In this document: in pieces, positions 6,808 through 41,656 of the stretch
Layout: each line of letters starts with the position of its first letter
Position numbering within the stretch: position 1 is the stretch's first letter
Source of the DNA: an uncultured Lachnospiraceae bacterium
Lineage (GTDB): Bacteria > Bacillota > Clostridia > Lachnospirales > Lachnospiraceae
Reading direction: 5' to 3'
Length of the DNA: 46,449 nucleotides
NCBI GenBank assembly: GCA_946544235.1
Contig: CAMNMC010000090.1
Span: 1 to 46,449 of the forward strand
Made by a program: the position numbers and the translations under genes
Notes under the pieces: generated by a model
What the model was told of the DNA's origin: nothing
What the model saw: the letters and a program-made list of their open reading frames with translations, nothing else
Databases searched by the model: none

Positions 6808-7608
6808 ATGATCAAACTTATCGCAAGTGACATCGACGGAACCCTTGTGCCAGACGGAACGGACAAGATAGATCCGGAAATGTTTAATATCATAAAGGAA
6901 CTGAAGGAAAAAGGCATACGCTTTGCAGGCGCCAGCGGAAGGCAGTTTGTCAGTATGAGAAAGCTTTTCGCACCGGTGAAGGATGATATTTTCTACATCA
7001 CGGATAACGGTAGCATTCTTCGTGACAGTAACAAGGTTTATTCGATGAATGTGATCGAAAGAGATGTTCTCTTCGAACTGATCGCGGATGTGAAGAAGCT
7101 GGATAACTGCGATATCATGCTCTGCGGACTTGATACTGCATATTGCGAGGATAAGAGTGAGATGTTCCTCTGGATGAGGGACTCCTACAAATATAATATA
7201 AAGGTTCTCGGTGATTTTGAAACTCATCTTGATGATGACATCGTAAAGCTTTCGATATATAAGAAGGATACGGTCGAAGAGGAGGTTATGGAATGGTTCT
7301 ATCCGAAATGGAAGGACAGGTTTATCATAGCTTCTGCAGGAACCATGTGGATGGATATCGTAAATCCGGGGGCCGACAAGGGCAGTGCTCTCAAGATACT
7401 CATGAAGGAGCTGGGACTCCGCAAGGAAGAGGTTATGGCCTTCGGCGATAACATCAATGATCTCGGACTTCTTGATGCGGCAGGAGAGAGTTATGCCATA
7501 GGAAGCGCAAGGCGGGAAGTTAAGGATGCTGCAAAGCACATCGCCCCACCGCTGTCCGTTTACGGAGAGACTATTGCGCTGAGAGATTTTCTGAATGAAT
7601 TAAAATAA
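6808..7608 (+). CDS. Cof-type HAD-IIB phosphatase
   Basis: A 266-residue cytoplasmic haloacid-dehalogenase-superfamily hydrolase, class IIB (Cof/YidA-like), which dephosphorylates sugar phosphates or related small phosphoesters. The nucleophile motif DIDGT is at residues 8-12. The IIB cap follows, and the metal-binding motif GDNINDLGLL lies near residues 212-221, with the conserved Lys in ADKGSAL before it. It has its own consensus promoter. The substrate cannot be told from sequence. A hairpin element separates it from icd. Confidence 0.92.
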   Translation: MIKLIASDIDGTLVPDGTDKIDPEMFNIIKELKEKGIRFAGASGRQFVSMRKLFAPVKDDIFYITDNGSILRDSNKVYSMNVIERDVLFELIADVKKLDNCDIMLCGLDTAYCEDKSEMFLWMRDSYKYNIKVLGDFETHLDDDIVKLSIYKKDTVEEEVMEWFYPKWKDRFIIASAGTMWMDIVNPGADKGSALKILMKELGLRKEEVMAFGDNINDLGLLDAAGESYAIGSARREVKDAAKHIAPPLSVYGETIALRDFLNELK

Positions 7609-7613
7609 TATGT

Positions 7614-7665
7614 TCCAATATCCTCAGAGGATGTATTTTACAACGGACGAGGAGGAATATTTGGA
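7614..7665 (+). repeat. Hairpin element, tentative divergent copy
   Basis: The arms TCCAATATCCTC (7614-7625) and 7652-7665 pair with two bulges around a 26-nt loop containing GAGGATGTATTTTACAACGG. This resembles the conserved loop core of the clear copies at 23.95, 28.1 and 40.7 kb. It lies in the leader of icd. Membership is plausible but not certain. Confidence 0.4.
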
Positions 7666-7698
7666 CAATAAAGTTAAACGTGTGGAGGAATATACACA

Positions 7699-8904
7699 AT
7701 GAGCAAAATTGAAATGAAAACACCGCTTGTAGAGATGGACGGAGACGAGATGACCAGAATACTCTGGAAGTACATAAAGGACGAGCTTCTTCTTCCTTTT
7801 ATCGATCTTAAGACAGAGTATTACGATCTCGGACTTGAGCACAGAAACGAGACAGATGACAAGGTTACATTTGACTCAGCTTATGCTACTCAGAAATACG
7901 GTGTAGCCGTTAAGTGCGCAACTATCACACCAAATGCAGCACGTGTTGAGGAATACAACCTTAAGGAAATGTGGAAGAGTCCTAACGGAACTATCAGAGC
8001 CATCCTTGACGGAACTGTTTTCAGAGCTCCTATCATCGTAAAAGGTATCGAGCCTTGCGTAAAGAACTGGAAGGCTCCGATCACTATCGCAAGACATGCT
8101 TATGGTGACGTTTACAAGGCTTCAGAGATGAAGATTCCGGGACCTGGAAAGGTTGAGCTTGTTTATACAGCAGAGGACGGATCTACAGAGTCTGTTCTGG
8201 TTCATGAGTTTAAAAGTGCCGGTATCGTTCAGGGTATGCACAATCTTGAGCCATCTATCGAGAGCTTTGCAAGAAGCTGCTTCAATTATGCTCTTGATAC
8301 AAAGCAGACACTTTGGTTTGCTACAAAGGATACTATTTCCAAGAAATACGATCACACCTTCAAGGACATCTTCCAGGATATCTATGATGCAGAGTACAAG
8401 GAGAAGTTCGAGGCTGCAGGTATCGAGTATTTCTACACACTTATAGATGACGCGGTTGCAAGAGTTATGAAGTCTAAGGGTGGCTTCATCTGGGCTTGCA
8501 AAAACTACGACGGCGATGTAATGAGCGATATGCTTTCATCAGCCTTCGGTTCACTTGCAATGATGACCTCCGTACTTGTTTCACCAAGCGGAGTTTATGA
8601 ATATGAAGCTGCTCACGGAACAGTTCAGAGACATTATTATAAGCATCTCGCTGGAGAGGAGACATCAACCAATCCTGTTGCAACGATCTTCGCATGGACA
8701 GGCGCTCTTCGTAAGAGGGGCGAGCTCGACGAAACACCTGAGCTTTCTGCATTTGCTGATAAGCTTGAGAAGGCTACCATCGACACCATCGAAGGCGGTC
8801 AGATGACGAAGGACCTTGCGCTCATCACTGAGCTTAAGGATGTTACGGTTCTTAATACAGAGAACTTCATCAAGGCTATTCGTGCAACACTTGAGGCAAT
8901 GTAA
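7699..8904 (+). CDS. icd: NADP-dependent isocitrate dehydrogenase, eukaryotic-type
   Basis: A 401-residue cytoplasmic enzyme converting isocitrate to 2-oxoglutarate with CO2 release and NADPH. The N-terminus ([13 protein letters not shown]) and the block [13 protein letters not shown] are typical of the dimeric type II, eukaryote-like IDH family rather than the E. coli type. Substrate-binding blocks such as [16 protein letters not shown] and the metal-binding DD pair (LIDDAVARV) are present. A GGAGG site precedes the ATG. The J-domain/TPR gene starts 8 nt after its stop and citrate synthase follows, so these genes probably supply 2-oxoglutarate for glutamate. No aconitase is encoded in the window. 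Confidence 0.95.
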
Positions 8905-22174: not shown

Positions 22175-23632
22175 ATGGGTGATAACGGACTTATGATGCA
22201 GTATTTTGAGTGGAATCTTCCGGATGACGGAACTCTCTGGAAAAATCTTGCGGCTGAAGCTGCAAAGCTAAAGACTGCCGGTGTTACGGCTGTGTGGCTT
22301 CCACCTGCATACAAGGGAGCTGAGGGCTCTGCAGATACAGGCTACAGTGTTTATGATCTCTACGACCTTGGTGAGTTCAAGCAGAAGGGCTCTGTTCGTA
22401 CAAAATACGGAACTAAGAAGGAATATCTGGAAGCTATCAAGGCTCTTCACGATAAGGATATAAATGTTTATGCGGATATCGTTCTTAACCATAAGATGGG
22501 CGCAGATGAGGTTGAAGAGGTTGAGGCTGCTGAGTTTAACAACCTGAACCGTTATCAGATGATCGGTGACACTCGTACCATCGGCGCATGGACCAAGTTC
22601 ACATTCCCGGGAAGAAAGGGTAAATACTCAAAGTTCACCTGGAACTGGAAGCATTTTGACGGAATCGACTGGGATCAGGATGAACTGAAGAAAGCCCTCT
22701 TCAAGTTTGCCGGTAAGGAATGGAACGAGGGCGTGGATGCAAGTATAAATGGTAACTATGATTACCTTATGGGCGCTGATATTGATTTTAACAACCGTGA
22801 GGTTTACGAGGAACTTCTTGCATGGGGCAAATGGTATATTGAGACTACGGGTGTGGACGGCCTCAGGCTTGATGCGGTAAAGCATATCCCTGCAGCCTTC
22901 TATCGTGACTGGCTCTTCAGTCTCCGCGAGGAGCTGGGCAAGGAACTCTTCACAGTGGGAGAATATTGGCATTGGAACAGAAATCTCCTGGAAAAGTACC
23001 TTGAGGATATCAAGACTCCGGCATCTCTCTTCGATGTACCGCTTCATTTCAGCCTTCACAACTGTTCAAAGGCTCACGGCGACTATGATCTGAGAAGGAT
23101 CTTTGATGGTTCTCTCGTTCAGAGCAGTCCGCTTTCTGCGGTTACCTTTGTTGATAATCATGATTCACAGCCGGGTGGCGCTCTTGAATCGTGGGTTGAG
23201 GATTGGTTCAAGCCTATGGCTTATGCGATCATCCTCCTCAGAGCTCAGGGCTATCCATGTGTATTTTACGGCGATTATAAGGGCATACCTCATGACAAGG
23301 TTAAGTCTAAGAAGACTATGCTGGATAAACTTATGAAGCTTCGTAAGACCAAGGCATACGGTCCTCAGCATGACTATATTGATGATCCTAACTGCATCGG
23401 CTGGACCCGAGAGGGTGATGATGAGCATAAGGATTCCGGACTTGCCGTAGTTATCTCTGACGGAACGGGCGGAACCAAGCATATGTACATCGGAAGAAAG
23501 TTCGCAGGTGCGCATTTCTCAGATATAATGGGTAATGCAAAATACAATATTAAGATAGATGATGAAGGCTTCGGCGACTTCTATGTAAACAGAGATGCCG
23601 TTGCCGTATGGGTAAGAAAAGAGCCGAAATAA
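22175..23632 (+). CDS. Cytoplasmic alpha-amylase (GH13)
   Basis: A 485-residue glycoside hydrolase of family GH13, hydrolysing alpha-1,4 links in maltodextrin or glycogen inside the cell. There is no signal peptide: the product begins MGDNGLMMQYFEW, as in the intracellular AmyS/AmyA-like subfamily GH13_5. Conserved region I is DIVLNHK. The nucleophile Asp233 is in GLRLDAVKH, the acid/base Glu263 in VGEYW and the third carboxylate Asp327 in FVDNHDS. The start at 22175 follows GAGGAGG; the open frame upstream is leader. The stop overlaps the next ATG (TAATG), so the TrpR-like gene is translationally coupled. Confidence 0.95.
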   Translation: MGDNGLMMQYFEWNLPDDGTLWKNLAAEAAKLKTAGVTAVWLPPAYKGAEGSADTGYSVYDLYDLGEFKQKGSVRTKYGTKKEYLEAIKALHDKDINVYADIVLNHKMGADEVEEVEAAEFNNLNRYQMIGDTRTIGAWTKFTFPGRKGKYSKFTWNWKHFDGIDWDQDELKKALFKFAGKEWNEGVDASINGNYDYLMGADIDFNNREVYEELLAWGKWYIETTGVDGLRLDAVKHIPAAFYRDWLFSLREELGKELFTVGEYWHWNRNLLEKYLEDIKTPASLFDVPLHFSLHNCSKAHGDYDLRRIFDGSLVQSSPLSAVTFVDNHDSQPGGALESWVEDWFKPMAYAIILLRAQGYPCVFYGDYKGIPHDKVKSKKTMLDKLMKLRKTKAYGPQHDYIDDPNCIGWTREGDDEHKDSGLAVVISDGTGGTKHMYIGRKFAGAHFSDIMGNAKYNIKIDDEGFGDFYVNRDAVAVWVRKEPK

Positions 23633-23925
23633 TGGGAAAAACGATAAGAACAAAGCCTGTGGATGAGCTCTTCGATGCGATAATGTCTCTCGAGAGTAAG
23701 GAAGAATTTTACCAGTTCTTCGAGGATATCTGCACGACCAATGAGGTGATCTCTATCGCACAGCGTCTTGAGGTCGCAAGGATGCTTCATGAAAACAGGA
23801 CTTATATCGAGATAGCTAAAGAAACAGGTGCTTCCACTGCCACCATAAGCAGAGTCAATCGTTCACTGAATTATGGAAACGGAAGCTATGAATATATTTT
23901 TGACCGACTGGACAAGGATATATAA
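23632..23925 (+). CDS. YerC/YecD family TrpR-related regulator
   Basis: A 97-residue DNA-binding protein of the YerC/YecD group in the Trp repressor superfamily. The core reads FYQFFEDICTTNEVISIAQRLEVARML, followed by a helix-turn-helix KETGASTATISRVNRSL and the closing motif NYGNGSYEY. The start overlaps the amylase stop as TAATG. An upstream in-frame ATG (23608) inside the amylase gene has no ribosome site. Members are found widely in Firmicutes, and their targets are mostly unknown. Coupling to amylase hints at carbon control, but this is inference. A hairpin element lies 21 nt beyond its stop. Confidence 0.9.
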   Translation: MGKTIRTKPVDELFDAIMSLESKEEFYQFFEDICTTNEVISIAQRLEVARMLHENRTYIEIAKETGASTATISRVNRSLNYGNGSYEYIFDRLDKDI

Positions 23926-23946: not shown

Positions 23947-24009
23947 ACCATCAGAATATGCCCGTGAGGGCGTATTTCACCTTCAACCGAACGGGTATAT
24001 TCTGATGGT
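23947..24009 (+). repeat. Hairpin element with conserved loop core (clear copy)
   Basis: A 19-bp stem (23947-23965 with 23991-24009) has one G-U wobble on the + strand and encloses a 25-nt loop. The loop begins with GAGGGCGTATTTCACCTTC directly against the 5' arm and ends AACCGA. There is no T run, so it is not a classic terminator. It matches the loops at 28.1 kb and 40.7 kb while the stem sequences differ. Confidence 0.8.
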
Positions 24010-24038: not shown

Positions 24039-25322
24039 ATGGACTCTGACGCCATAGTGAAGCTGATCGTCCTTGCAGTGCTTCTTATACTTTCGGGAGT
24101 ATTTTCCTCAGCGGAAACTGCTCTTACGACAGTCAGCATCAGCAGGATAAAGGCACTTGCGGACGAGGGTAGTAAAAGGGCGGCTAAAGTCCTGCAGCTC
24201 AGGGAGTCATCTTCCAAGCTGCTGACTACGATCTTAATTGGAAATAACATAGTGAATCTTTCGGCCTCGGCGCTTGCAACAACGTTCTGCACCGAGGTTT
24301 TCGGAAGTATTTATATTGGAATAGCAACGGGTATACTGACTCTGGTCGTTCTCATCTTCGGTGAGATCACTCCCAAGACGCTTGCGACACTTTACAGCAC
24401 GAGACTTTCTCTCGTCTTCGCGTATCCGGTTGCATTTCTTATGCTCATTTTTACACCGATCATATGGATACTTAACGGGATTACAAAGGTTATATTTAAG
24501 ATCCTTCGTATTGATCCCGACAGAAAGGAGCATATGACCGAGGGTGAGCTCAGAAATCTTGTTGATGCCAGCCATGAGGATGGCGTTATAGAGAAGGATG
24601 AGCGCGAGATGATCACAAATGTGGTTGATTTCGGTGAGGTTGTCTCGAAGGACATCATGGTTCCGAGAGCCGATATGATATGTATCGACTGTGAGGCGGG
24701 ATATGATGAACTGATCGAGCTGTTTCGCAACGAGAATTATACACGTATTCCGGTTTACAGGAAGACGAGGGATCATATTATTGGTATCCTTCATATGAAG
24801 GATGTGCTTCTGATGACTGATGAGGAGAGGAAAAACCTGTCCATCGAGAAGGTCATGAGGAAGCCTGTATTTGTTTATGAATACCAGCATACGGCGAAAA
24901 TCTTTGCCGGTATGAAGACTTCTTCGGCAACCATGTGCATAGTTATTGATGAATACGGTCTGACGGCCGGGCTTATCACGATGGAGGATCTGCTTGAGGA
25001 AATAGTCGGCGATCTGCGTGATGAATACGATACGGCTGAGGATGATCTTATAAGAAGTCTGGGAGATGACCGCTACGATATTGATGCGGCGGTTAAAATA
25101 GATGATGTAAATGATGCGATAGGCACGGAAATAAAGTCGGAGGACTATGATTCCATCGGCGGATACGTTATAGAGCTGCTGGACAGGATCCCGAAGGAGG
25201 GTGATGAGGTTTCCGACGGGAAGGTGCAGATCAGAGTTACCGGTGCCGAGAAGAACAGAGCCGTAAGAGTTGAACTGCTTGTTCTGCCGAAGCCGGATAC
25301 AGAGGGCGAGGAGAGCGAGTAA
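24039..25322 (+). CDS. CNNM/CorC-type membrane protein with CBS domains (HlyC/CorC family)
   Basis: A 427-residue membrane protein. The DUF21/CNNM transmembrane domain (about 1-190) opens with LILSGVFSSAETALTTVS. It is followed by a CBS pair (about 205-335; RADMICID, YTRIPVYRKTRDHIIGILHMKDVL and VIDEYGLTAGLITMEDLLEEIVGDLRDEYD). A C-terminal CorC_HlyC domain (about 345-425) ends the protein. The family is linked to magnesium or cobalt efflux, and the older hemolysin name is historical. AAGGAG precedes the ATG. There is no visible operon partner. Confidence 0.93.
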   Translation: MDSDAIVKLIVLAVLLILSGVFSSAETALTTVSISRIKALADEGSKRAAKVLQLRESSSKLLTTILIGNNIVNLSASALATTFCTEVFGSIYIGIATGILTLVVLIFGEITPKTLATLYSTRLSLVFAYPVAFLMLIFTPIIWILNGITKVIFKILRIDPDRKEHMTEGELRNLVDASHEDGVIEKDEREMITNVVDFGEVVSKDIMVPRADMICIDCEAGYDELIELFRNENYTRIPVYRKTRDHIIGILHMKDVLLMTDEERKNLSIEKVMRKPVFVYEYQHTAKIFAGMKTSSATMCIVIDEYGLTAGLITMEDLLEEIVGDLRDEYDTAEDDLIRSLGDDRYDIDAAVKIDDVNDAIGTEIKSEDYDSIGGYVIELLDRIPKEGDEVSDGKVQIRVTGAEKNRAVRVELLVLPKPDTEGEESE

Positions 25323-26344: not shown

Positions 26345-28003
26345 ATGATAAGCGCAAACAATGTTTCACTGAGATTTGGAAAGAAAGCACTTTTTGAAGA
26401 GGTTAACATCAAGTTCACACCGGGCAACTGCTACGGTCTGATCGGTGCGAACGGAGCAGGTAAGTCAACCTTCCTCAGGATCCTTTCGGGTGATCTTGAG
26501 CCGACCAGCGGTGATGTTACTATGGATCCGGGCGAGAGAATGTCGGTTCTGCAGCAGGATCACTTCAAATATGATGCATATAATGTTCTTGATACCGTTA
26601 TTATGGGTAACAAGAGGCTTTACGATATCATGCAGGAGAAGGATGCCATCTATGCCAAGGAGGATTTCACGGAGGAAGATGGTATCAAGGCTTCAGAGCT
26701 CGAGGCAGAGTTTGCAGAGCTTGACGGCTGGAATGCACAGGCTGATGCGGAGACTCTCCTTAACGGACTCGGCGTTGAATCTGAGTTCCACTACAGTCCG
26801 ATGAGTGAGCTTGACGGTAATCTTAAAGTCAAGGTTCTTCTTGCACAGGCTCTTTTCGGTAATCCTGATGTTCTTCTGATGGACGAGCCTACCAACCACC
26901 TTGATCTCGATGCTATTGCATGGCTCGAGGAGTTCCTCATCAATTTTGAAAATACCGTTATCGTTGTAAGCCACGACAGATATTTCCTGAATAAGGTTTG
27001 TACACATACGGCCGATCTTGATTACGGCAAGATCCAGCTCTATGCCGGAAACTATGATTTCTGGTATGAGTCAAGTCAGCTTATGATCCGCCAGATGAAG
27101 GAAGCTAACAAGAAGAAGGAAGAGAAGATCAAGGAGCTGAAGGAATTCATCGCCCGTTTCTCTGCAAATGCAAGTAAATCAAAGCAGGCTACCTCTCGTA
27201 AGAAGGCTCTCGAGAAGATCGAGCTTGATGAGATCAAGCCTTCAAGCAGAAAATATCCTTACATCGATTTCAGACCGAACCGCGAGATCGGTAACGAAGT
27301 TCTTACTGTTAAAAATATCAGCAAGACCGTTGACGGCGTGAAGCTTCTGGACAACATTTCCTTCACAGTCGGAAGAGAAGATAAGATCGCTTTCGTAGGA
27401 CCGAATACTCTTGCAACAACAATGCTCTTCAAGATACTTGCCGGCGAAGAGGAGCCGGATGAGGGTGAATACAAGTGGGGCGTAACAACCTCACAGGGAT
27501 ATTTCCCTAAGGATAATACCAAGGAGTTTGATAACGACCTCATCATGGTTGACTGGCTCACACAGTATTCGGAGGAGAAGGATGCTACCTATGTAAGGGG
27601 CTTTCTCGGTAGAATGCTCTTCCCTGGTGATGCCGGAACCAAGAAGGTTAAGGTTCTTTCCGGAGGTGAGAAGGTGAGGTGCCTTCTGTCCAAGATCATG
27701 ATCATGGGTTCTAACTGCCTCATCCTTGATGAGCCTACAAACCACCTTGACATGGAGTCGATCACTTCACTCAATAATGCTCTTATCAAGTTCCCGGGCG
27801 TTGTGCTTTTTGCCTGCCAGGATCACCAGTTTATCCAGACTACGGCAAACCGTATCATGGAGCTTACTGCTACCGGACTTATCGATAAGCAGACAACCTA
27901 CGACGAGTACCTCGACAGCGATGAGCTTGCAAGAAAGAGATTCGTTATGAATATGGATATGAGTATTGCAGACGATAAGGCGGCGGCAGAAGAAGACGAG
28001 TAA
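26345..28003 (+). CDS. ABC-F family ATPase (YkpA/YbiT-like), one degenerate ATP site
   Basis: A 552-residue soluble tandem-cassette protein of the ABC-F family, expected to act on ribosomes. Cassette 1 has an intact Walker A, GANGAGKST (34-42), and LLMDEPTNHLD, but its signature is LDGNLKV (about 156) instead of LSGGQ. Cassette 2 has the signature LSGGEKV (about 438) and LILDEPTNHLD, but its Walker A reads GPNTLATTM (about 352-360) without the lysine, and its H-loop is CQD with Gln492 in place of His. The damaged parts belong to the same composite ATP site, so one site should be active and the other dead. Partial degeneracy is known in this subfamily; the full extent here is notable. Confidence 0.92.
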   Translation: MISANNVSLRFGKKALFEEVNIKFTPGNCYGLIGANGAGKSTFLRILSGDLEPTSGDVTMDPGERMSVLQQDHFKYDAYNVLDTVIMGNKRLYDIMQEKDAIYAKEDFTEEDGIKASELEAEFAELDGWNAQADAETLLNGLGVESEFHYSPMSELDGNLKVKVLLAQALFGNPDVLLMDEPTNHLDLDAIAWLEEFLINFENTVIVVSHDRYFLNKVCTHTADLDYGKIQLYAGNYDFWYESSQLMIRQMKEANKKKEEKIKELKEFIARFSANASKSKQATSRKKALEKIELDEIKPSSRKYPYIDFRPNREIGNEVLTVKNISKTVDGVKLLDNISFTVGREDKIAFVGPNTLATTMLFKILAGEEEPDEGEYKWGVTTSQGYFPKDNTKEFDNDLIMVDWLTQYSEEKDATYVRGFLGRMLFPGDAGTKKVKVLSGGEKVRCLLSKIMIMGSNCLILDEPTNHLDMESITSLNNALIKFPGVVLFACQDHQFIQTTANRIMELTATGLIDKQTTYDEYLDSDELARKRFVMNMDMSIADDKAAAEEDE

Positions 28004-28075
28004 TATATAGATGATTTAAGTGCAAATTTAACATGAAATATTATCTCCGGCAGACTGTTTGTTTGATATAAAAAA

Positions 28076-28270
28076 ATAGCCGGCTGGCATATGTGTCCCT
28101 GAAGGCGTATTTTATCTACAACCAGGTAGTTATCTGCGTAGCAGATTGCTATCATGAGCGTAGCGAATGATGCGGCATGCGTAGCATGCCCATACATCAT
28201 GAAATGATGTATGCATGATTTTGAATACAAAATCATGGCACATGAAGGGATACATATGTCAGCCGGCTAT
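28076..28270 (+). repeat. Hairpin element with conserved core plus a five-hairpin insert
   Basis: The outer 25-bp stem (28076-28100 with 28246-28270) has two G-U wobbles on the + strand. The core GAAGGCGTATTTTATCTAC directly follows the 5' arm, then AACCAG. The loop is then enlarged by five successive small hairpins at 28132-28146, 28151-28171, 28174-28190, 28191-28213 and 28214-28237. The first three have GC-GTA-GC tops; the last two have perfect 10-bp stems. A T-rich run after the stem and an A-rich run before it would allow termination in both directions. Confidence 0.85.
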
Positions 28271-28313
28271 TAATTTTTTCTGATATAGTTTCAAATGTTT
28301 ATTAATGGAATCG

Positions 28314-29144
28314 TTATCTAAAAATGTATTCAAGCAGCTTCTCTGCGCGATCCTTGTTACGATCCTTGCCACCCGGGAAGCAGATATAGACATCCTCGTA
28401 GCCGAGGTTGAGCTTCTTGGCAAACTCGGTTCCGGAAATATTTACGGCAAGAGGCTTTGAACGATCGCCGACAGCCATCAGAATCTCTGTCGTCTTGGCG
28501 TTGATCGCAGCTTTGGCATTTTCAGGATCAGCGTAGTCAGAAGAGTAGTAGATCCTTCCTTTATATTTATCAAGAACCTCCTGATCAAAATAATCATCCA
28601 TAAAGAAGAGGATACATGCATAGTTGCAGTATTCAAGTCCCTGCAGATTGGTGATGATCACATCATAGTAGTTATCCTTGACCAGCATGGCAAGCGAAAT
28701 TGCGTTGCTGTTGCCTGAAGTGTTGGAGAGCTCGTATTCAAGAGTTACATTATAATATGCATCGGCCAGAAGCCGGCGGCCCTTATTCAGTTTGGTATCC
28801 TTGACAAACTGTTCAAATGGTTTGTCTGAAACGGCGAGTGGATCGTCTGCATTCAGAACTGCGGCTGCAAGGCTTACAGGTCGTGAATTCTTATATATAG
28901 CGATTGCCAGGGAACCAAAGACCAGAACGGCGGCAACACCAAATAAGAAATACCATTTATAATAGTAAATGATGTATTTGATCTTCTCTTTACGGGACAT
29001 CTCGGCCATACGGGCTTTCATCAAGCTCCTTTTTTTGGCCCGTCGTTCCTTTCCAGACATGAGCGCCATGGCAAGTCTGTCTTCTGAATCGGCTTCCTCC
29101 TTTTCCTTTGGTTTTTCTTCGAATTCCTTAAGCATCTCTCTCAT
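28314..29144 (-). CDS. Single-pass membrane protein, function unknown
   Basis: I do not recognise a named family. The 276-residue protein has a charged cytoplasmic N-terminus of about 55 residues (EKPKEKEEADSEDR, then KKRSLMKARMAEMSRKEK). One membrane segment follows at about 60-84 (YYKWYFLFGVAAVLVFGSLAIAI). The rest would be an extracytoplasmic domain of about 190 residues. It is transcribed away from the sugar-binding protein gene, with which it shares a 378-nt intergenic region. Similar one-pass proteins occur beside sugar ABC transporters in Lachnospiraceae, so a role in envelope sensing or transport is possible but unproven. GAGGA lies about 10 nt before the start. Confidence 0.75.
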   Translation of the reverse strand: MREMLKEFEEKPKEKEEADSEDRLAMALMSGKERRAKKRSLMKARMAEMSRKEKIKYIIYYYKWYFLFGVAAVLVFGSLAIAIYKNSRPVSLAAAVLNADDPLAVSDKPFEQFVKDTKLNKGRRLLADAYYNVTLEYELSNTSGNSNAISLAMLVKDNYYDVIITNLQGLEYCNYACILFFMDDYFDQEVLDKYKGRIYYSSDYADPENAKAAINAKTTEILMAVGDRSKPLAVNISGTEFAKKLNLGYEDVYICFPGGKDRNKDRAEKLLEYIFR

Positions 29145-39379: not shown

Positions 39380-40699
39380 ATGGCAACAAGAAAGAAGAAA
39401 ACAGCAGAACCTGAGTTTTTAGGAAGCGCAGAGCTTGAAGCTGCTGCTGACAAATTACTTGCTGAGGCTGACAAGAAGGAAGCAAAAAAGGAAGAAGTAA
39501 AGCCGGAATATAAAGATGGCGAAGCTTTTGATGATTCCGAAGAGCTTGATGGCAAGCCGAAAATGACTGAAGAGGACGAAAAACTCTTCAATGATACACT
39601 TGAGAAGCTCCTTGTCATGGCTAAGAGCAAGAAGAGTGTTATCGAAGACACAGAGATCATTGATGCATTTAAGGATAAGCAGGAATTCCTTACAGATGAT
39701 AATATGATCAGAGTTATTGATTTCTTTGAACGTAATAAGGTCGATGTCCTTACTATAACCGAGGATGATGACGATGTTGAGCCGGACGATCTTATGTTTG
39801 AGCTTGATGATGAAGAAGAAATAGATATGGAGCAGATCGATCTCTCAGTTCCTGAGGGTGTCAGTATCGAGGATCCTGTACGTATGTACCTCAAGGATAT
39901 CGGTAAGGTACCTCTTCTTACAGCTGAAGAGGAGATCGAGCTTGCCAAGAAGATGGAAGACGGCGGCGAAGAGGGCGAGGAGGCTAAGAAGAAGCTTGCT
40001 GAAGCCAACCTCAGACTTGTTGTCAGCATCGCCAAGAGATATGTGGGCAGAGGTATGCTTTTCCTTGACCTTATTCAGGAAGGAAACCTCGGCCTGATCA
40101 AGGCGGTTGAGAAATTCGATTATACCAAGGGATATAAATTCAGTACATATGCAACCTGGTGGATCAGACAGGCTATCACAAGAGCTATCGCCGATCAGGC
40201 AAGAACCATCAGAATACCTGTGCATATGGTTGAGACGATCAACAAACTTATCAGAGTTTCAAGACAGTTACTCCAGGAGCTTGGTCGTGAACCGACCCCG
40301 GATGAGATAGCAGAGGAAATGAATCTGCCTGTAGACAGAGTAAGAGAGATCCTTAAGATATCTCAGGAGCCTGTTTCTCTCGAGACACCTATCGGTGAAG
40401 AGGAAGACAGCCACCTTGGAGACTTTATTCAGGATGAAAATGTACCTGTTCCTGCGGAAGCAGCTGCATTTACCCTTCTTAAGGAGCAGCTTGTTGAGGT
40501 ACTCGGAACACTTACCGAAAGAGAACAGAAGGTTCTTCGTCTCCGTTTCGGTCTTGACGACGGAAGAGCAAGAACTCTTGAAGAGGTAGGAAGAGAATTC
40601 AGCGTTACAAGAGAGCGTATCAGGCAGATTGAGGCTAAGGCTCTCAGAAAGCTGAGACATCCAAGCCGCAGTCGTAAGCTGAAAGAGTTCCTTGAGTAG
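39380..40699 (+). CDS. rpoD: Primary sigma factor of RNA polymerase
   Basis: A 439-residue housekeeping sigma-70. An acidic N-terminal part (about 1-150) stands in for region 1.1. Regions follow in order: 1.2 ([18 protein letters not shown]), 2 ([37 protein letters not shown]), 3 ([13 protein letters not shown]) and 4 ([17 protein letters not shown], then the helix-turn-helix [25 protein letters not shown]). The ribosome site GGAGG lies inside the end of dnaG. It should recognise the TTGACA/TATAAT-type promoters seen in this window. About 65 residues between region 1.2 and the start are lineage-specific. Confidence 0.97.
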
Positions 40700-40721
40700 T
40701 CGCATACAGTATTGAATAGCT

Positions 40722-40784
40722 CGCGCTTAGATATACCTCCTCAACCGTAGGTGAAATACACCTTCGGAGGTATACCTAAGCGCG
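40722..40784 (-). repeat. Hairpin element with conserved loop core, minus orientation (clear copy)
   Basis: Read on the minus strand, a 19-bp stem with one G-U wobble encloses a 25-nt loop. The loop starts with GAAGGTGTATTTCACCTAC (40765 down to 40747) directly at the 5' arm and ends GGTTGA. It lies between rpoD and trmK and is antisense to that transcript. The loop length equals that of the 23.95-kb copy. Confidence 0.8.
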
Positions 40785-40837
40785 AATCGTTAAAACCGTA
40801 GTTATGTGAGAAATGCTTGGTACTCGGAGGGTTTGAC

Positions 40838-41656
40838 TTGGAGAGTAGTGTAACAGGACGAATGTCCAAAAGAATGCTGGCGGTGGCTGATATGGTATCG
40901 CACAGCAGACAGCAGGATAATAAAACGTACAGAGTTGCGGACATCGGCTGTGATCATGCCTTTGTAAGTATTTATCTGATGCAGCACGGTATTGCGGATA
41001 AAGTGATCGCAATGGATGTAAATCCGGGACCGCTTGAGGCTGCCCGTAAGAATATCGACAGGTATCTGGGAACGACAGAAGGTGCAGAAATCGACATCAG
41101 ACTGTCGGATGGTTTTGCCGGATTGAAGAAGGGCGAGACAGATGCTGCAGTCGTAGCGGGAATGGGCGGAAAGCTTGTGATATCCATCATTGAGGGCGCG
41201 GATGTATTTGTACCGGGATATAAGCTGATACTTTCGCCTCAGTCCGATGTGCCGGAGGTAAGACTGTATCTACTTGAACATGGTTTCAAACTCATGGATG
41301 AGGATATGATCTGTGAGGATGGAAAATATTATAATATTATCTGTGCGGAGTATGTTGGCACTTCACAGCTGTCAGATGATGTTGACGAAGATGATATTAT
41401 TCATCAAGAAGACCGTGAGAGCAATGAACAGCCGGAAAACATTAAAGGTGAGAAGCTGATCCTTATACAATATGGAGAAAACCTCATCAATAAGAAGAAC
41501 CCTGTATTTAGAGAGTACCTGGAAAAAAGAAAAAAGTCACTCGGCACGATCTATGACAATCTCTCACAGCCGTGCAGTCCGCTGGTGGTTACAAGGCGGG
41601 AAGAGATCAAGAGGGAACTGGGCGAGATTGAGTTTGTCCTCGAAAAAATGAACTAG
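40838..41656 (+). CDS. trmK: tRNA (adenine(22)-N1)-methyltransferase
   Basis: A 272-residue SAM-dependent methyltransferase of the TrmK/YqfN family, modifying A22 of tRNA. The SAM-binding motif is VADIGCDHAFVSIYL, followed by IAMDVNPGPLEAARKN. The family motif AGMGGKLVISII and the stretch LSPQSDVPEVRLYL are clear. I chose the TTG at 40838, which has GGAGGG six bases upstream; a TTG at 40817 lies before that site. A low-complexity acidic insert (about residues 180-210) separates the domain from a C-terminal helical part. It follows rpoD, as in many Firmicutes. Confidence 0.93.
   Translation: MESSVTGRMSKRMLAVADMVSHSRQQDNKTYRVADIGCDHAFVSIYLMQHGIADKVIAMDVNPGPLEAARKNIDRYLGTTEGAEIDIRLSDGFAGLKKGETDAAVVAGMGGKLVISIIEGADVFVPGYKLILSPQSDVPEVRLYLLEHGFKLMDEDMICEDGKYYNIICAEYVGTSQLSDDVDEDDIIHQEDRESNEQPENIKGEKLILIQYGENLINKKNPVFREYLEKRKKSLGTIYDNLSQPCSPLVVTRREEIKRELGEIEFVLEKMN

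Follow-up and report, generated by a model that had tools for sequence, protein, structure and literature searches.

Among small interspersed repeats, NEMIS are long inverted repeats close to genes and work at the transcript level, as hairpins that steer RNA cleavage, and NEMIS and ERIC elements alike have conserved terminal repeats. The family described here has a stem of about 23 bp. PMC3049150 mentions an effect of ERIC in the transcript and describes BOX, RUP and SPRITE of S. pneumoniae as small interspersed repeats with predicted RNA folds, cotranscription and an excess between convergent genes, BOX being modular, with a boxB that may be missing or repeated. For REP and REPIN elements, two papers report compensatory stem changes (PMC3116915) and, in E. 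coli REPs, a conserved AA-GC mismatch needed by the RAYT protein, TnpA_REP (PMC8266576). Template switching has been put forward as a way in which RNA hairpin stems are created and maintained and loops are inverted, with rRNA as the object of study (PMC8794818), and a second paper proposes that it homogenises arms and can turn spacers around (PMC8604942).

The window, the whole 46,449-nt stretch of DNA analysed here, holds copies of a hairpin family that comes closest in its workings to the small interspersed structured repeats (REPIN, BOX, NEMIS), fails the REP/RAYT features tested and matches no Rfam family. Like REP/REPIN with RAYT, it consists of high-copy intergenic hairpins with strand-specific features, clusters and tandems. 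Unlike REPINs, which have conserved ends and a variable middle, it shows the reverse layout of a fixed tip on a free base, and its arms, unlike those of REP/REPIN, pair along their whole length. It resembles BOX, RUP and SPRITE as a small interspersed repeat and, in a comparison made without alignment, differs from them in sequences and fold; in contrast to these, its outer stem is free in sequence but constrained in pairing, and its inner module is a separate repeat found across the genus. It also recalls hairpins maintained by template switching, with paired changes in both arms and loop inversion, except that many separate 23-bp copies share one tip, unlike the rRNA cases. The carriers are a few rumen bacteria of one Lachnospiraceae genus, in which the elements lie between genes, and a sequenced isolate, Lachnospiraceae bacterium C6A11, makes the family testable. 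Tentatively, and somewhat short of an even chance, we read it as a formerly mobile interspersed structured repeat whose intergenic copies are kept as single-stranded hairpins, most likely in RNA, that act on the transcript.

Copies in the window

Three copies lie in the window (Table 1), at the places and with the wobbles that an earlier sequence-only reading had given for them, and the core pattern matches exactly three times, against 0.16 expected by chance. Both loops of the short copies are 25 nt and all four non-Watson-Crick stem positions are G-U on the core strand, as that reading had noted; the copy at 28.1 kb proved to be a different, long form, with 145 nt within its stem. Predicted RNA folds of the core strands gave z-scores of -8.4, -9.0 and -10.8 for the copies at 23947, 40721 and 28075, and the opposite strand folded more weakly in all three (-37.9 vs -31.2, -41.5 vs -36.2 and -102.9 vs -90.6 kcal/mol). 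Scores in the table refer to two covariance models, R1 from 24 short copies and R2 from the inner domain of the long form, and gene contexts were assigned by a simple longest-ORF rule.

Table 1. Positions of the hairpin copies in the window, their parts and the genes next to them
Feature	Position	Strand	Details
Short copy 1	23947-24009	+	sense orientation; 70.9 bits with R1
5′ arm	23947-23965	+	19 bp with 3′ arm, one G-U
Tip	23966-23990	+	GAGGGCGTATTTCACCTTCAACCGA
3′ arm	23991-24009	+	
Trp-repressor-family gene	23608-23925		neighbour of short copy 1
CNNM/CorC-family gene	24039-25322		neighbour of short copy 1
Short copy 2	40721-40785	-	antisense; 74.9 bits with R1
5′ arm	40785-40766	-	20 bp with 3′ arm, one G-U
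Tip	40765-40741	-	
3′ arm	40740-40721	-	
Sigma-70 gene	39380-40699	+	neighbour of short copy 2
trmK-like gene	40817-41656	+	neighbour of short copy 2
Long copy	28075-28271	+	157.6 bits with R2
P1 (outer arms)	28075-28100/28246-28271	+	26 bp, two G-U; encloses 145-nt inner domain
P2 (tip hairpin)	28101-28123	+	core shared with short copies
P3	28126-28152	+	12-bp hairpin, GNA triloop
P4	28153-28169	+	small hairpin
P5	28171-28240	+	28171-28173 with 28238-28240; encloses P6, P7, P8
P6	28174-28190	+	inside P5
P7	28191-28213	+	inside P5
P8	28214-28237	+	inside P5
Gene with two ABC domains	26345-28003	+	neighbour of long copy
ORF without Pfam match	28314-29144	-	neighbour of long copy
Possible decayed fourth copy	7602-7676	+	tip-like AGAGGATGTATTTTACAACGGACGA
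ORF	7699-8904		directly downstream of possible fourth copy

A further hairpin at 7602-7676 is perhaps a decayed fourth copy of the short form; it scored 23.3 bits with R1 (E 0.0014), and ordinary hairpins of the window reach 23.2. A tRNA-like element was rejected, as ARAGORN detected no tRNA fold in the window. Around the long copy we found no promoter-like sites (2.0 expected), and only its inner hairpin P7 fits the terminator pattern. Rfam 15 gave no match above the gathering threshold in the window, and at lax thresholds seven loci with copies or modules had only sub-threshold matches to eukaryotic families, so the comparison with Rfam that had been proposed for this hairpin returned nothing similar.

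Short form

A short copy is a hairpin of about 23 bp with a tip of about 25 nt, GARGGCGTATTYnnnCTACAACYGA. For 24 aligned short copies, RNAalifold placed two 2x2 internal loops beyond a 23-bp stem, first GA/GA and then GC/AA, with 2 bp between them, and ended the fold with 3 bp (GUA/UAC) around a loop of 7 nt. The description of the tip as a conserved 25-nt loop holds for the loop flanks; the middle varies from copy to copy, the loop is itself structured by the GUA/UAC mini-hairpin and the two internal loops, and the long form stands apart. Two-sided changes occurred in 24 of the 28 pairs of this alignment, with 93.9% of cells paired (69.6% shuffled, at most 50.4% in slid controls) and a covariation score of 0.715 (0.227 shuffled, at most 0.18 slid).

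The ten tip-proximal pairs tend towards ATATGCCCCT. Further out, the pairs are nearly free, their arms carrying a weak consensus near GATTCAYGTRCACA, and an edge lies at about 23 bp. Where a MITE would have conserved terminal inverted repeats that match an IS, the terminal pairs have only a weak GGATTC-like consensus. Mean best identity between outer arms was 9.90 of 14 in the window's own genome (column-shuffled mean 9.38, maximum 10.03) and 9.53 of 14 in a second carrier, G005 (mean 9.20, maximum 9.94); by this measure the outer arms of different copies are hardly more alike than shuffles, as in star-like divergence. No T-run or promoter-like motif next to the element is conserved, although single copies such as L012 have a T-run after the stem, and an intrinsic terminator was rejected for the lack of a conserved T-run 3′ of the arm.

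Long form and nested module

The long-form alignment comprises 16 copies with about 145 nt inside the stem, 14 from the window's own genome (G000, window copy included) and two from G005. The inner domain folds into P2, P3, P4 and P5, with P6, P7 and P8 lying inside P5; the alignment has 50 pairs, of which 19 show two-sided change, with 99.5% of cells paired; further pair types numbered 29 against 30.4 in shuffled alignments, which is not above the control. P5 pairs as UGC/GCA in the window copy and is jointly changed to CAC/GUG in five of the 16. Behind P2, helices P3 to P8 make up a nested module of about 120 nt, and in an alignment of ten modules from eight species with one C6A11 long form, covariation is seen at 43 of 50 pairs, and 96.1% of cells are paired. 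Alignment A6 was fitted to its model. The covarying stems around a conserved loop that had been suspected from the three window copies are thus borne out strongly in the short form, the long form and the module.

In eight species whose matches were read (L263-L270), the module occurs without a recognisable tip core, and for this reason the long form is most simply taken as a nest of two repeats. At L267 (1394-1653), the only one of these loci tested, the module stands alone as a 2.2-copy tandem of 117 bp with 99% matches. Long and short forms occupy a common locus in L008/L165 and in L062/L213. GNA triloops, which are unusually stable in DNA, close P3 in 16, P6 in 14, P4 in 12 and P7 in 10 of the 16 long copies. 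One extended version of our reading joins these parts into a two-module interspersed RNA, in which the genus-wide module of about 120 nt and a housing hairpin, rich in four species, would form a stable RNA bound by a dedicated putative protein, under near pure pairing constraint and with continuing exchange of tips; we regard this fuller version as unlikely.

Among side observations, a long copy in G000 (L232, C35:14540-15540) has an inner part of 310 nt, and its module match starts about 160 nt behind the start of the tip, so another insert between them seems likely. Genome G006 has 22 module matches, several of them adjacent.

Distribution and copy number

The genome from which the window comes (2.87 Mb, 82% complete, 119 contigs) contains 37 core matches, against one for a reversed control; 32 have an arm pair, a few of these short or shared with a neighbouring copy, and five have none. 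A covariance-model scan of the genome and its relatives, which the sequence-only reading had proposed, recovered further copies that keep the core, and neither of the outcomes named there as refuting it came about. In G000, R1 gave 87 matches at E<=0.1, seven of them the second strand of another, so that some 80 places remain; the weakest of these may be ordinary hairpins of the kind that reach about 23 bits. Across the genus, counting matches down to weak scores, R1 found seven of 61 genomes (63, 45, 14, 8, 2, 1 and 1 matches), four of them rich, and the last two carriers, G054 and G025, have a related tip with other inner letters. R2 found 35 of the 61, so that the module adds a strongly covarying multi-hairpin element to the genus. 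In a sample of 299 genomes of the family, R1 matched two, both of the same genus, and R2 likewise matched only that genus; neither hairpin nor module was found in the 297 genomes of other genera, where weak copies may be missed since few candidates were scored per genome (16 and 10).

By pattern, named carriers are Lachnospiraceae bacterium C6A11, Eubacterium sp. RGIG2622 (goat omasum) and uncultured Eubacterium RUG671. Among 40 stretches of genome contigs with the short DNA pattern, 21 matched R1, all from these three records, and 19 did not; none of five viral contigs with the pattern matched. Phage or plasmid origin was rejected, the long copy having no match in the phage or plasmid collection. 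A retro-element with its own reverse transcriptase was rejected as well, with no PF00078 match in carriers G005, G015 and G033 and a single one in G000. No title naming the family appeared in the literature searched, which consisted of open PMC articles. A related tip motif, GTGAGTATT..GACTCAY, occurs in three of the 61 genomes with one match each, and the match in G052 (L253) has no evident arms.

Pairing, wobble and strand bias

For a comparison at fixed geometry we took 100 copies with 20 pairs each, read on the tip strand, and counted 1740 Watson-Crick, 144 G-U, 22 A-C and 94 other cells. Pairing persisted as arms diverged: copies with 0-3, 4-5, 6-7 and 8-11 of 11 outer positions changed kept 10.7, 10.5, 9.7 and 9.7 of 11 pairs. 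The G-U share was above the 0.57 expected from base composition in sense copies (83 G-U to 11 A-C, p 4e-11), in convergent ones (24:2, p 1e-4) and in antisense ones (26:8, p 0.02), the ratio being somewhat inflated by a stem finder that scored G-U above A-C; the four divergent copies (7:1) were not significant. The 32 copies found by tip pattern, whose stem ends were set by a score that likewise favours G-U, had 29 G-U, 2 A-C and 4 others. Sense and antisense copies did not differ significantly in G-U share or in unpaired cells (p 0.16 for each). The pairing kept despite divergence, together with the G-U excess, speaks against neutral decay. More specifically, C-to-T decay of the 3′ arm, offered by the sequence-only reading as another cause of the wobbles, is not enough, since G-U occurs on both sides (102 5′G-3′T and 42 5′T-3′G) and A-C, expected from equal decay of the other strand, is rare; the 5′G-3′T wobbles lie mostly in two columns of the 24-copy alignment, 11-67 and 21-57.

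These data support a single strand of the tip's polarity that probably folds and is kept folded. As to whether it folds as RNA or as single-stranded DNA, pairing and wobble are less clear, because G-T is also the milder mismatch in DNA; we infer RNA from the sense bias and the multi-branch module. In G000 and G005 together, 49 copies were sense and 19 antisense (p 0.0004), and 13 convergent and 3 divergent (p 0.02). A strand-specific mobile hairpin of single-stranded DNA in the manner of REP/REPIN, with a transposase reading tip mismatches on one strand and present copies still movable, is possible if on the improbable side: the strand asymmetry extends to antisense copies, GNA triloops are common in the module, the GC/AA 2x2 loop of the tip recalls the AA-GC mismatch of E. 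coli REPs, and copy numbers are patchy across the genus, but the Y1 transposase (PF01797) gave no match in three of the four richest genomes (G000, G033 and G005, the last listed as 100% complete and the most complete of the four), with one fragment in the fourth (G015). Moreover, PF01797 occurs in 36 of the 61 genomes, 32 of which have no R1 match, and copies at sites shared between G000 and G005 are still paired. Membership of the REP/REPIN-RAYT group was rejected on the missing Y1 (RAYT) gene and on palindromic ends that are not conserved.

Of the 100 copies, 54 are sense between genes of the same direction, which, with the conserved tip and covarying stem, is what a cis-regulatory RNA of many genes (a riboswitch or protein-operated leader with the tip as sensor) would show. 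We nevertheless consider it very unlikely, as 24 copies are antisense to both neighbours and 15 convergent, no T-run follows the stem, and the genes flanking L153 are kept in 60 of 61 genomes but, among the five relatives in which both gaps were read, have the element only in G000, in one of the two. A purely cis-acting mRNA role also does not predict the tip-strand G-U excess in the 24 antisense copies.

On the interpretation that we prefer, a structured repeat kept folded in RNA, copies would have spread in the past as DNA inserts that brought their own arms and then stayed in intergenic gaps, where they would mostly be co-transcribed with neighbouring genes and fold in the transcript. Selection would keep the pairing of the arms, whatever their sequence, and the sequence of the tip; the probable reason is that the tip, set on a helix of fixed length, is recognised by a protein or nuclease. 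What the element likely affects is how RNA near the insertion is processed or how stable it is, in line with proposals for ERIC or BOX; at a minimum, the insert would be kept folded and thereby do no harm. Some of the paired changes may come from template switching, with one arm copied from the other. The initial suggestion of an RNA motif or a hairpin mobile element is well supported, in that both halves seem to apply, though as an overall interpretation it is supported only in part.

Shared sites, movement and exchange

Signs of movement are seen in copy numbers that differ widely between species, in clusters and tandems, and in one fairly clean empty site, L148/L138, where an element stands in G005 and, in G015, a short gap that contains neither of the arms; no obvious direct repeat, such as the target-site duplication of a MITE, was seen there by eye. 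Two further G015 gaps without the element, also read by eye, contain neither arm and are less clean since their surroundings differ too, and absence in G015 may reflect loss. The gaps bear on the proposal that outer arms are target-derived, with insertion duplicating adjacent host DNA as an inverted repeat. Outer arms do differ between copies that share similar tips and modules, and own-flank k-mer matches ran at about twice the control (0.090 against 0.043 per kb, and 0.46 against 0.21 within 80 nt), an excess perhaps due to neighbouring copies in the flanks, which were included in the count; yet none of the three gaps contains an arm and the outer arms share the weak consensus described above, and we hold this origin to be most improbable.

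At eight loci whose two flanks are orthologous, G000 and G005 both carry an element, where about 0.7 such loci would be expected (p 4e-7), or 2.1 if 5% of gaps were open to insertion (p 0.001), taking 42 G000 loci and, roughly, 45 elements in 2700 gaps. Copies at orthologous sites do not count as independent observations. Seven of the eight have the same orientation and one the opposite, which by itself is only weakly informative (p 0.04 when tested against one half and 0.10 against the sense bias). In those seven, the arms are rewritten yet paired, with an outer-arm likeness of 0.38 against 0.35 for random pairs (p 0.35). The close pair G005/G015 has identical copies (L139/L068, L157/L084 and one copy of L148/L138), nearly identical ones (L141/L074, L149/L135 and L160/L081, the last with one C-G pair turned to T-A) and rewritten but paired ones (L145/L078 and L152/L136).

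Could such stems arise with no function at all, through template switching between the inverted arms that copies one arm onto the other and can also flip the tip? The literature cited above proposes just such homogenisation and inversion, and two pairs lie at the same locus in opposite orientation (L071/L072 and L234/L150), but the process predicts Watson-Crick arms and no strand preference, against the observed predominance of G-U over A-C, and two of the three changed pairs in L160/L081 are single steps into or out of wobble. It also leaves the nearly fixed tip and the compensated multi-branch module unexplained, and we judge it rather unlikely. The family is a rare natural experiment on this point: its dozens of paralogous 23-bp stems carry a common tip, some of them occupy sites that species share, and their compensatory changes may have come either one step at a time via G-U or together through template switching.

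Loop types are common to many copies within a genome (TTTTATC 17, TTCTTGC 15 and TTTCACC 10 in G000; TTTTGC 13, TTTTGT 6 and TTTTATC 3 in G005) and different at all eight shared loci, a pattern that simple vertical descent fails to explain and that points to probable exchange between copies or lineage-specific amplification.

Several arrangements were noted besides. At L071 1501-1579 and L072 1501-1579, two other species have a related hairpin at the same intergenic locus in opposite orientations, 94% alike over 47 nt at the tip and with unrelated outer arms. L002 (G000 C14:11684-11924) consists of three tandem copies, the middle one sharing its 5′ arm with the third and its 3′ arm with the first; its own arms are unpaired in their outer part, making it a recombination chimera. 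Three tandem copies about 95 nt apart at L241 (G000 C105:18481-18739) have nearly the same arms. Finally, several G005 copies, among them L152, L160 and L213, have GTCCGTTA-like letters after the element and ACA-like letters before it, and GTACGTTA is already present in the empty site of L148/L138, a possible target preference.
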